Assembly: GCA_945267035.1 (NCBI GenBank)
Contig: CALYOS010000011.1
Span: 1 to 53,466, forward strand
Length of the DNA: 53,466 bases
Origin: an uncultured Neisseriaceae bacterium
GTDB lineage: Bacteria; Pseudomonadota; Gammaproteobacteria; Burkholderiales; Neisseriaceae
Direction of reading: 5' to 3'
Notes under the pieces: model-generated
What the model saw: the letters and a program-made list of their open reading frames with translations, nothing else
Told to the model about the DNA's origin: nothing
Databases searched by the model: none
Position numbers and translations under genes: made by a program
Shown here: piece after piece, positions 3,670 through 32,190 of the stretch
Layout of the letters: each line of letters opens with the position of its first letter
Position numbering within the stretch: position 1 is the stretch's first letter

Positions 3670-4704
<1,035 letters not shown>

Positions 4705-7235: not shown

Positions 7236-7421
7236 GCGTTAAATTGTGAATAGTTTGTTTTTTTATGTTACATGAAAGCAATTTATAGCTAAAAAACAAC
7301 AATAGTACGAAATTAAATGTTTAATTTAGACAAAAAATATCATTTCATTCAATTAATTTGTCTAATTTTTTTAAAAAAGTAGGTATTTGACATTTTTTTA
7401 TTTTTGGACAAATTGTCTGTA

Positions 7422-8291
7422 TCATTGAATGATTACATCAGCTCCAGCTGCGCTAGCAAGAGCCAGCAAGGTGTTTTTATCCATGTAAGCATGACTAAGA
7501 TGAGAAATATTGGCAACGATGGGTAAATGGCTGATGCACTTTGCTTTGACAATTGCTTCAATATCTAGTCGGTAAGGTGTCTGGCGCTCCATACTAAGTG
7601 TACCGGCTTCGCCCAGCATAAGATGATGATTTCCTTTGAGGGCAATGTGTTCCGCCGCTATTAACCAATCGTCAACTTGATGATGTTTATCTTTACATAA
7701 TACTACTGGAATATTCAGGCATCCCACTTCATTAAGTAATGTCCGATTTGACATGAGTTCTCCGCCTAAATAAATTATGTCTGCTTCTGCTTGCAAGGCA
7801 TATTCTAGCTGTCTAACATCACGAATTCGTAGCCAAACAGGTTGACCAGCTTGATGCGCCAAATTTATTTGCTGTTGCATGGTTTGTTGCTGCTGCTGGC
7901 TATCTGGTTGTTTGATGGTGTATGGTGAAGTGGACTGATAAAAGGGATCGATGAATACACTGTTGCTATTAGGCAGGTTAAAATCTGACATGGTCATGAC
8001 ATATTGATTTTGTTCTGCACCGATTTTCAGACCACGTACGGTAATGATGGTGTCTTCTGCTTGAATTTCTCTACTGATAATGCGCCAATCTTGTACAACG
8101 CGTATGGCCTTTTCAACGCCATCCAAGGCTTCCAGCTCTCTGGGCTGAAACACTCTTTCATCCCCAACTGCGCCAATAATGGTGCGCTCTTTACCTTTAG
8201 ATAAATGCTCAGTTAATCCTCGTTGATGGATGAAATGAATTACCTGATTTATCTCTGTATCGGTAGCGTTTCGCTGCATTACGATGATCAT
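7422..8291 (-). CDS. DAHP-synthase-like protein with degenerate active site (probable pseudoenzyme)
   Basis: The first 90 of 289 residues match the ferredoxin-like regulatory domain of the Thermotoga/Bacillus type of 3-deoxy-7-phosphoheptulonate synthase: MIIVMQRNAT, ERTIIGAVGDE, LEALDGVEKAIRV, SREIQAEDT. The rest follows the aligned barrel but has lost key residues. The GPCSVE region reads MTMSDFN (99-105). KPRTSPY reads YQSTSPY (118-124). LLKRG reads VLCKD (197-201). CERGIRTFE reads LGEAGTLSM (226-234). DPSHxTG reads NISHLSH (261-267). The protein stops at GADVIIQ, before the metal-ligand Glu. The frame is intact, with AAGGAT before ATG, so this looks like a maintained non-catalytic relative, perhaps regulatory. 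Family motifs are quoted from memory. Confidence 0.7.
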   Translation of the reverse strand: MIIVMQRNATDTEINQVIHFIHQRGLTEHLSKGKERTIIGAVGDERVFQPRELEALDGVEKAIRVVQDWRIISREIQAEDTIITVRGLKIGAEQNQYVMTMSDFNLPNSNSVFIDPFYQSTSPYTIKQPDSQQQQQTMQQQINLAHQAGQPVWLRIRDVRQLEYALQAEADIIYLGGELMSNRTLLNEVGCLNIPVVLCKDKHHQVDDWLIAAEHIALKGNHHLMLGEAGTLSMERQTPYRLDIEAIVKAKCISHLPIVANISHLSHAYMDKNTLLALASAAGADVIIQ

Positions 8292-29652: not shown

Positions 29653-30666
29653 ATGAGCCAAAACAAGCAAAAACTCACTAAGCGTCAGCTACGAGATGGC
29701 ATCTCAGCTAAAAACCACGACAAAAGTGCTAAAAGCACAGGGAAACGTCCGCTAAAAGGTAAAAATCAGCCTGGTGCAAGCCAACAAAATATGGCACCTA
29801 AGCCGAAAATTCAAAAAGCAAAAAAACTGATTCAACGTTCACCTAATCAAGAGGTTCAGCAGCGAGCACGAAATCTCAAAGCGCAACGAATCGACCTAGA
29901 GCAGATGGAACCAGTCAGACTTCAAAAGGCTTTGGCTGCTTCAGGTGTAGGCTCAAGACGAGAAATGGAACAATGGATTTCTCAAGGTTTGGTACGAGTA
30001 AATGGTAAACCTGCTCAGTTAGGTGATCGTATTACGCCTGAAGATGAAGTTATGGTGCGAGGTTCTACCATCAATATCAAATGGCCTGATCGCCTGCCCA
30101 GAATTATTGTTTATTACAAACAAGAAGGTGAAATTGTAAGTCGTGATGATCCGCAAGGACGAGTAAGTATCTTTGATCGTCTACCTCAAACAGCCAGCAG
30201 CCGTTGGGTGGCGATAGGACGATTAGATATCAATACAAGTGGGTTATTAATTTTGACTACTTCAGGTGAGCTAGTGAATCGTTTTGCGCATCCAAGCTTT
30301 GAGGTAGAACGAGAATATGCGGTCAGAGTATTGGGCGAGCTAACAGATGAGCAAAAACAAAACTTATTGACTGGGGTAGAACTAGAAGACGGCACAGCTA
30401 AAGCGCAGCAGCTTTGGGAGCAGGGCGGTGAAGGGGTTAATCGCTGGTATAACATCATCATTAAAGAAGGCAGAAATCGTGAAGTCAGACGCCTATTCGA
30501 AAGCCAAGGACTCACTGTTAGTCGGCTCGTCCGCGTACGATTTGGTCCTATTCCACTGCCTGCGCGCTTAAAACGAGGCCAATACTATGAACTGAATGAA
30601 CTGGAAGTAGCCAGCATCATGAGCTGGGCAGGGCTACAACAACCAAGCAAAAATCGGCGTCGTTAG
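29653..30666 (+). CDS. rluB: 23S rRNA pseudouridine(2605) synthase RluB
   Basis: The enzyme isomerises a uridine in helix 89/90 of 23S rRNA. The 337-residue product has a very basic N-terminal tail of about 90 residues. An S4 RNA-binding domain follows (VRLQKALAASGVGSRREME, about 93-140), and then the catalytic domain with Asp in GRLDINTSGLLILT (near 195) and EGRNREVRRLFE (near 274). The pairing scpB-rluB is common in proteobacteria. The family has close paralogues (RluE, RluF); the S4 domain and the scpB neighbour favour RluB. GAAGAGG precedes ATG. Confidence 0.93.
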   Translation: MSQNKQKLTKRQLRDGISAKNHDKSAKSTGKRPLKGKNQPGASQQNMAPKPKIQKAKKLIQRSPNQEVQQRARNLKAQRIDLEQMEPVRLQKALAASGVGSRREMEQWISQGLVRVNGKPAQLGDRITPEDEVMVRGSTINIKWPDRLPRIIVYYKQEGEIVSRDDPQGRVSIFDRLPQTASSRWVAIGRLDINTSGLLILTTSGELVNRFAHPSFEVEREYAVRVLGELTDEQKQNLLTGVELEDGTAKAQQLWEQGGEGVNRWYNIIIKEGRNREVRRLFESQGLTVSRLVRVRFGPIPLPARLKRGQYYELNELEVASIMSWAGLQQPSKNRRR

Positions 30667-30884
30667 TTAAAAATTAAATCCGCTTAAGGTTGCCGTCAAT
30701 TGAGTTAATATTGACAAAATACTACATTTATTAAACTTAAAGCATTATTTGCTAGATAAATGTGAAATTTTGTTGATTTAAAGCATGGGGTGATTTACAT
30801 TCATCATGTATAGTAACAAAACCATGTTTAGAGGTTTTAAGGCTTTTCCCAGCCTGTTACCTATCATTTTTCAATGGAGTCATC

Positions 30885-31376
30885 ATGAATTTAACCATGA
30901 AAGAACCCGAAATTGCCCATCGCACTTTCGAATTAACTCATTTTGATGGCGCAAAGCGTACCGTCTATTGCACCGATGTTGAAACCCAGTTTCCAGATGG
31001 TTGTCTTATTACGTCTACCACTGATCTAAACGGGTATATCACTCATGCAAATGAAATATTCGTGAAAATGAGTGGCTGGGACCGTGAAGAACTGATGGGT
31101 GCTGGGCATTATATTCTGCGGCATCCTGATATGCCCAGTGTTGCCTTTAAAGATTTATGGGACACTGTTCAAACTGGGCAAAAATGGCATGGTTATGTCA
31201 AAAATTTGCGCAAGGATGGTGGATTTTACTGGGTATATGCAACCGTTATTCCGAATATCCGTGATGGTGAAATCCGCGGATATACTTCTGTAAGACGCAA
31301 ACCTTCACCAAGTAAAATTGCAGAACTCCAATCAATATATCAGGATTTAATCAAAGCAGAACGAGCGCAACGATGA
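30885..31376 (+). CDS. Stand-alone Aer-like PAS domain protein
   Basis: The 163-residue soluble protein is almost only a PAS domain of the aerotaxis-receptor type, residues about 38-140. Its hallmarks are ITHANEIFVKMSGWDREEL, the near-invariant RHPDMPSVAFKDLW, GQKWHGYVKNLRKDGG-YWV and GYTSVRRKP. In Aer this domain binds FAD and senses redox or oxygen state. There is no transmembrane helix, HAMP or chemoreceptor signalling domain, only a short C-terminal helix (145-163). It must therefore signal through a partner. Its stop overlaps the next gene's start (ATGA), pointing to the binding-protein-like product as that partner. Confidence 0.85.
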   Translation: MNLTMKEPEIAHRTFELTHFDGAKRTVYCTDVETQFPDGCLITSTTDLNGYITHANEIFVKMSGWDREELMGAGHYILRHPDMPSVAFKDLWDTVQTGQKWHGYVKNLRKDGGFYWVYATVIPNIRDGEIRGYTSVRRKPSPSKIAELQSIYQDLIKAERAQR

Positions 31377-32122
31377 CTTTAAATTTTCTAATTGCACCCG
31401 ATTTCCCGCCAGAATATTTTGCAGGCTGGCATTTTATGAATGCCCATTTACAAAAATCTCTTGGGATCAATATTCATTTGTTATTGCCGGCAAGCACAGA
31501 TGAAGAACAACAAGCTATAGATCATAATAAGGTTGATATCATCTATGCCAATCCGTTTGATGCAGCCAAACTTATTCGTGAAATGGGTTATTTGGCGGTA
31601 GCACAGCCGATCAATCGCTATGATGAAATCGTCATAGCTGCTGCACAAAACAGTAACATTAAAACACTCGCCGATATTAAAGCAGGTATGAAGGTTTTAG
31701 CCACAGAAAATTATGATGTGAAATTGTTGGCTTTACGCCTATTGGAAGCGGTTGATGCGCAAGAAAATGATTTAATCTGGGAAAAATGTGATTCCTTTAT
31801 CGCTGTCGCTAATGGGCTCATCAAAAAACGTGGAGATATAGGTTTATTCCTAGCTTCTGCCTATAAAAAACTGTCGAAAATTACGCTCAATAATCTTCAA
31901 CCACTTATTGAAAGCAAAATTAATGACTTAAACCATGTTATTTTAATTCATCCCAGACAAGTCGACCTATTGGGAATGTTACAGCAAGTTCTCTGTCAAC
32001 TGAATCAGACTAAAGAAGGGTTAGTCATATTGGAAGATCTGGGACTGGCAGATGGTTTTTCAAAGGTCAATCAAGAAGATGCGGAATTACTGATCGATAT
32101 CATTGAAACTTTACGAGATTAA
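31373..32122 (+). CDS. Cytoplasmic PhnD-type substrate-binding-protein-like protein
   Basis: The 249-residue product has the fold pattern of PhnD/SsuA-type periplasmic binding proteins: an early strand NFLIAPDFPPEYF, a VDIIYANPFDAAKLI block near residue 60, and a hinge region KTLADIKAGMKVLATEN. It has no signal peptide, lipobox or transmembrane segment, so it should stay in the cytoplasm. No permease or ATPase gene is nearby, so a transport role is unlikely. It overlaps the PAS gene by four bases and shares one terminator with it. I infer a ligand-sensing signalling pair. This is not a described system that I can name. Confidence 0.75.
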   Translation: MTLNFLIAPDFPPEYFAGWHFMNAHLQKSLGINIHLLLPASTDEEQQAIDHNKVDIIYANPFDAAKLIREMGYLAVAQPINRYDEIVIAAAQNSNIKTLADIKAGMKVLATENYDVKLLALRLLEAVDAQENDLIWEKCDSFIAVANGLIKKRGDIGLFLASAYKKLSKITLNNLQPLIESKINDLNHVILIHPRQVDLLGMLQQVLCQLNQTKEGLVILEDLGLADGFSKVNQEDAELLIDIIETLRD

Positions 32123-32160: not shown

Positions 32161-32190
32161 GCAACTTATTATCCGATAAGTTGCTTTTTT
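32161..32190 (+). terminator. Terminator of the PAS / binding-protein operon
   Basis: GCAACTTAT (32161-32169) pairs with ATAAGTTGC (32176-32184), loop of six, followed by TTTTTT. It overlaps the longest possible dusC frame, which supports the later dusC start at 32214. Confidence 0.88.

Follow-up and report, generated by a model that had tools for sequence, protein, structure and literature searches.

A PAS protein and a leaderless PhnD-type binding protein in Snodgrassella, candidate sensors for the MglA/MglB switch

The window analysed here is contig CALYOS010000011.1 (contig 11 of assembly GCA_945267035.1, 53,466 nucleotides), from a genome of the Neisseriaceae genus Snodgrassella, which inhabits the bee gut (2.32 Mb, 83 contigs, 96.5% complete; G000 in our sets). 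It carries two overlapping genes, which encode a stand-alone PAS protein and a protein of the PhnD/PtxB periplasmic-binding-protein fold, hereafter the binding protein. Because many relatives hold this pair next to the genes encoding a Ras-like switch, the GTPase MglA and the roadblock protein MglB, which is known for its control of pilus-driven movement, the pair is probably a sensor for the Mgl switch. The locus comprises the following features:

30667..30884, plus strand: upstream intergenic stretch of 218 bp, presumed promoter region, with GGAG ahead of the ATG of the PAS gene
30885..31376, plus strand: PAS gene (163 amino acids), stand-alone Aer/CetB-type PAS, predicted redox sensor binding flavin adenine dinucleotide (FAD)
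31373..31376, plus strand: ATGA overlap, holding the stop of the PAS gene and the start of the binding-protein gene
31373..32122, plus strand: binding-protein gene (249 amino acids), signal-less PhnD/PtxB fold, predicted cytoplasmic
32161..32190, plus strand: terminator-like hairpin and T run, 3' of both genes

The PAS protein and the binding protein

Analysis of the PAS protein revealed a close match to the PAS domain of Escherichia coli Aer (8dik, E 5.3e-38, residues 33-154) and to full-length Aer (31cj, E 2.2e-37). Pfam returned PAS models only (PF08447, E 1.9e-14) and no further domain, in agreement with an earlier note on this DNA, which had described an Aer-type PAS without output domain. 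The motifs RHPDMP and VKNLRKDGG occupy residues 79-84 and 105-113. According to the text available for PMC2628428, residues R57, H58 and D60 of Aer are needed for FAD binding, and they align with R79, H80 and D82 of the window protein. Among the 41 PAS sequences from pair loci, R and H are kept in all 41 and D in 38, the other three having E; since 27 other Aer-type PAS sequences keep all three residues too, these cannot separate the PAS groups. Judging from its sequence, the PAS protein would bind FAD and may read the redox state of the cell like Aer.

Aer-type PAS proteins are common, with at least one in 123 of the 250 genomes of the order sample (E 1e-25). In a tree of 68 sequences and 129 columns, built by a quick method, the 41 pair-locus sequences (including L150 and L153, extra PAS genes upstream of MglB) lie on one side of a branch with a support of 94, just under the starred level, in the Shimodaira-Hasegawa-like approximate likelihood ratio test (SH-aLRT). 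The opposite side holds the other Aer-type PAS proteins, including those linked to methyl-accepting chemotaxis proteins (MCPs), and the four scanned neighbours of PAS genes from that branch all carry MCPsignal. At L060 to L063, stand-alone Aer-type PAS genes adjoin MCP genes, two of them with CZB zinc domains, as CetA/CetB-like pairs. The bipartite energy taxis system CetA/CetB of Campylobacter, as far as described in the available text of PMC2628428, and E. coli Aer share with the window the (stand-alone) Aer-type PAS and the FAD residues. Unlike in these systems, the partner of the window PAS is no chemoreceptor, and the MCP-linked stand-alone PAS proteins fall on another branch. The pair as one half of a chemoreceptor was rejected, given the missing adjoining MCP and the separate PAS branch. 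Fusion of the pair to a known chemoreceptor, named in the earlier note as a possible counter-argument, was met at none of the loci examined, no systematic search having been made.

The second protein belongs to PF12974 (Phosphonate-bd, E 7.7e-25) and is of the PhnD/PtxB type in both domain and fold. In its AlphaFold2 model (mean predicted local distance difference test score, pLDDT, of 95), the first strand starts at residue 2. As no start codon lies in frame upstream of 31373 in the window and the entire open frame of the gene spans 250 codons in eight congeners, no leader is encodable at this gene. Leaders were scored across the family by the highest hydropathy over 12 residues, taken from at most 60 in-frame residues preceding the fold, with a threshold of 1.9. 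None of the 70 distinct members (the window protein and 69 others) reached it, 31 of them having too few residues ahead of the fold for any leader, whereas 12 of 14 lower-scoring relatives did; of the remaining two, one is misaligned. A score gap of 149 versus 86 bits divides the family from these relatives. The binding protein appears to remain in the cytoplasm, and the reading of a binding-protein fold without signal peptide, already made in the earlier note, extends to the 69 other members scored.

The ligand pocket was compared through a profile sequence alignment, not a superposition. Of five pocket residues common to PhnD and AioX (Y88, Y131, S161, S163 and H192 in AioX numbering), only Y131 is retained, the window counterparts being T42, Y83, N113, D115 and F142. 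Conserved residues of the binding protein are W19, N60, D84, E85 and D115. The protein probably closes on a small ligand, which would be held otherwise than phosphonate.

Searching the PDB with the single sequence gave weak FtsZ matches only (E 0.7 or worse), and the PDB relatives came from a profile search instead. With Foldseek, the second match was XAC2383 of Xanthomonas citri (5ub3), and the hydroxymethylpyrimidine synthase Thi5 (4h6d) was found at E 3.4e-13. XAC2383 is a PhnD-like periplasmic receptor that works with the membrane diguanylate cyclase XAC2382, and is not known to have a PAS or roadblock protein with it. AioX and ArrX resemble the window protein as PF12974-fold proteins serving signalling, not transport (PMC5908839). 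Unlike it, they are periplasmic and paired with a histidine kinase (PMC5908839), and the window protein keeps one of the five AioX-PhnD pocket residues.

At the locus itself, the ATGA overlap noticed earlier is confirmed by the open reading frames 30885-31376 and 31373-32122, and translational coupling of the two genes through it is likely. The sole terminator-like match between 30550 and 32350 consists of a 10-bp stem (32161-32184) and the run TTTTTT after it, with a fold z score of -1.83. As shuffled sequence yields 1.5 such matches on average, the hairpin with its T run stands, but its service as the single terminator of both genes, which the earlier note had claimed, is likely and unproven. 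A consensus scan found no sigma-70-like plus-strand site in 30667..30884. The pair is flanked by an RluB-like gene, ending at 30666, and a dihydrouridine-synthase-like gene, both named by eye. Among the translated neighbours between 28 and 35.8 kb of the window, read by eye, neither ATP-binding cassette (ABC) transport genes nor chemotaxis or MCP genes were evident, as had been noted before, this stretch being the part of the genome that was inspected for chemotaxis genes. Assignment to a defence system was rejected, with no PADLOC match at E 0.01.

Gene order with MglA and MglB in relatives

The surroundings of the family were compared in a class sample of 369 genomes, the window's included, which holds 20 family places outside the window once duplicates are dropped (L158 repeats L111, and L126 is a single gene in two pieces). 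The PAS gene lies directly upstream of the binding-protein gene at 15 of these places, and an MglB gene within 1.5 kb upstream at 16. The 15 PAS-bearing loci span 11 families, and MglA is seen within the fetched stretch at 13 of the 15, the typical order, as far as fetched, being receiver-like protein, MglA, MglB1, MglB2, PAS, binding protein. The adjacency recurs at most binding-protein places, so the pair is no chance arrangement. A check of linkage across genomes, proposed in the earlier note, thus came out as conserved, here and at the Neisseriaceae places described below. The two-part module that the same note had envisaged was not borne out as a free-standing unit: in many relatives the pair belongs to an MglA/MglB operon, and four genomes lack the PAS gene. 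These four belong to the order sample, where MglB2 is directly followed by the binding protein; coupling of PAS and binding protein alone is therefore not invariant. Two other genomes of that sample show the full order plus a second binding protein.

Co-occurrence with MglA was examined at three levels. With MglA scored at E 1e-15 in the class sample, it is present in 17 of the 19 carriers of the binding protein versus 48 of the 350 other genomes (Fisher 2.9e-12, these tests ignoring kinship). For the order sample, which includes the window's genome, the counts are 9/9 versus 13/241 (5.5e-11), and for the Neisseriaceae 33/33 versus 37/50 (6.7e-4). The order set comprises the nine genomes matching at E 1.7e-14 or better; the weaker G028, G152 and G182 were excluded, and their loci (L014, L015 and L016) have a hydrophobic stretch before the fold and no MglA match in the genome. 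The pilus protein PilT exceeds its cut-off in 27 of 27 genomes that carry the binding protein versus 38 of 49 that lack it (p 0.005), the latter drawn from the class sample only; the support from PilT is weak, since pili are common.

Several loci depart from the typical arrangement. At L158 (G470), genes for a receiver-like protein, MglB1, MglB2, PAS and two binding proteins follow one another, and no MglA is found in the stretch or the genome at E 1e-15. At L053 967-2535 (G168), one PAS gene precedes two tandem binding proteins, and at L052 ~7356-7850 (G202) the PAS gene between the roadblock and binding-protein genes contains an in-frame stop. L169:4874-5968 (G496) encodes, in a single open frame, a STAS domain (PF01740, E 1.2e-8) followed by a PhnD-fold domain; this fusion is another cytoplasmic signalling setting for the family. 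In a phylum sample of 259 genomes, one member besides the window protein stands well above the rest (the already known G043), and nine others, including a second place in G043, score between 76 and 92 bits.

The Snodgrassella loci and mglB-3

In the Neisseriaceae, 44 binding-protein places were found in 33 of 83 genomes, and the cassette is detached from mglA where examined. PAS is upstream at 41 of the 44 (with MglB intervening in two) and MglB at 18, often in the order MglB-PAS-binding protein; one place has a tandem second binding protein. The window genome has its own mgl operon on another contig (G000:C4 27381-31634, locus L067), in the order TPR protein, receiver-like protein, MglA, MglB1, MglB2. 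Its MglA matches PF00071 at E 4.8e-12 and its MglB2 PF03259 at E 5.1e-18, while MglB1 lies just under the Pfam cut-off (21.2 versus 23 bits). The group-3 label for the Snodgrassella mgl genes is taken from PMC11112851. PilT is also present in the window's genome.

Two pairs occur in 9 of 14 Snodgrassella genomes, and in each of the nine an MglB gene precedes the second pair. A single pair is found in the window genome and in the congeners G317, G320, G321 and G323, two of these four being less than 90% complete. In the available text of PMC11112851, mglB-3 is an "orphan" colonisation and pilus-motility gene of Snodgrassella, whose mutation changed colony edges and competition in bees; among the genes treated here, a published effect on pili or motility exists for mglB-3 only. 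At L179, each of the two published mglB-3 primers fits, with a single mismatch, the MglB gene that precedes the second pair. This gene also holds the published mglB-3 codon; we count 120 codons versus 121 in PMC11112851. An exact primer search over 174 loci gave no match. When 14 selected loci were scanned with mismatches allowed, L176 and L177 showed 3 and 1 mismatches. The nine Snodgrassella second-pair loci have up to 6 mismatches, always within the MglB gene, whereas unrelated loci give 5 to 7 at any position; for this reason only L176, L177, L179 and like loci support the mglB-3 match.

At L179, a gap of ~455 bases (3716-4170) separates mglB-3 from the PAS gene, and co-transcription there is uncertain. 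A gene read by eye as a transporter of the major facilitator superfamily (MFS) type lies downstream of the second pair. The earlier note had held that a signal peptide or transporter genes in close relatives would speak against it; this MFS-type gene near the second pair was seen, and the leader is absent in all 70 family members.

Proposed role and alternative explanations

The operon, the GTPase and the roadblock genes of pair-bearing loci are those of the group-3 MglA/MglB systems, as far as described (PMC4316618; PMC11112851). The description of group 3 in PMC4316618 names a receiver-like protein along with MglA and either one or two MglB; the main text of this survey contains 'pas' and 'periplasmic' 0 times, and the pair-bearing loci add a PAS protein and a binding protein. 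Likewise, 'pas domain' and 'phosphonate' occur 0 times in the available text on Snodgrassella mgl (PMC11112851). No report joining roadblock, MglA or MglB with a PAS and a PhnD-type binding protein was found in the open-access literature. The parts are of known kinds, and their composition is, as far as we know, new.

We consider it rather probable that the window holds the sensory part of the group-3 mgl operon as a detached copy, in which a flavin-redox and a metabolite sensor feed the MglB/MglA control of type IV pili. The PAS protein would supply the FAD-borne redox input, and the PhnD-fold protein a metabolite input in the cytoplasm. Both would act on the roadblock protein MglB, as the GTPase-activating or guanine-nucleotide-exchange (GAP/GEF) partner, or on MglA. 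The share of MglA in the GTP state, set by the pair, would then tune how active the type IV pili are and how the cell behaves on surfaces. In Myxococcus, as far as described, polarity and pilus-dependent motility are controlled by MglA with MglB. More tentatively, and with clear reservation, we suggest that the binding-protein fold has been recruited to the cytoplasm, where it senses a metabolite and regulates a Ras-like GTPase directly, PAS and binding protein forming a coincidence detector on MglB. If true, type IV pilus movement would answer respiration and nutrient together, with neither a chemosensory array nor a two-component kinase involved.

A number of observations weigh against a role in Mgl control. 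Neither MglA nor MglB adjoins the window pair, so that physical mgl linkage is absent there, and the window genome, 96.5% complete, has this one detached pair only, with mglB-3 not found. The co-occurrence tests are blind to kinship, and the genomes with MglA only (48/350 in the class, 37/50 in the Neisseriaceae) mean that MglA needs no binding protein. Two class genomes have the family and no MglA, namely G688, whose operon is truncated at a contig end, and G470, whose operon has none. PAS is not directly upstream at 5 of the 20 class places, and four of these five, in G496 (twice), G351 and G603, also lack MglB, the gene being lone or STAS-fused; all three genomes have MglA elsewhere. Two Neisseriaceae genomes have no PAS at the binding-protein place. 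Finally, the nearest solved folds include the transport proteins PhnD and PtxB.

Some of these points suit other explanations. In Snodgrassella, PAS and binding protein could form a free-standing sensor, signalling mutually and to some other partner, with an mgl link that is ancestral only. The window copy without MglB fits this, as do the 26 of 44 Neisseriaceae places with no MglB within 1.5 kb upstream, but the retention of MglA in all 33 Neisseriaceae carriers and of the full operon in other class families makes it unlikely. The pair might also act downstream of MglA, as an output or effector whose targets could be, for instance, pilus proteins or the receiver-like protein. Operon position gives no direction, and the receiver-like protein is encoded in the same operon; the relatives Aer, AioX and ArrX of the pair are sensors, although PhnD and PtxB serve transport, and we regard an output role as quite unlikely.

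MqnA and MqnD are cytoplasmic enzymes of the binding-protein fold. That the window protein is an enzyme of this kind, or like Thi5, with a redox partner, is suggested by the presence of Thi5 among the structural neighbours and by the leaderless family; we give this idea little credit. Least of all do we expect a component of a periplasmic transporter, orphaned and deprived of its leader. Membership of PF12974 speaks for it, against which stand the 70 members without hydrophobic leader, the leaders of most lower-scoring relatives and the score gap between the two groups. A transporter component was accordingly rejected, with the leader missing and no ABC genes seen by eye.

To our knowledge, the inputs that trigger the MglA-type GTPases of beta- and gammaproteobacteria are an open question. 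Should the pair be a sensor for the Mgl switch, a conserved redox-plus-ligand pair in the same operon would offer two concrete candidate inputs, testable with soluble proteins. The orphan mglB-3 of Snodgrassella also gains context from the pair, since the text available on this gene makes no mention of PAS or binding-protein neighbours.

A last observation concerns MglA itself. In two related genomes (L050 10484-12130 and L051 9937-11715), MglA shares one frame with a domain read by eye as serine/threonine-kinase-like, a possible kinase-GTPase fusion.
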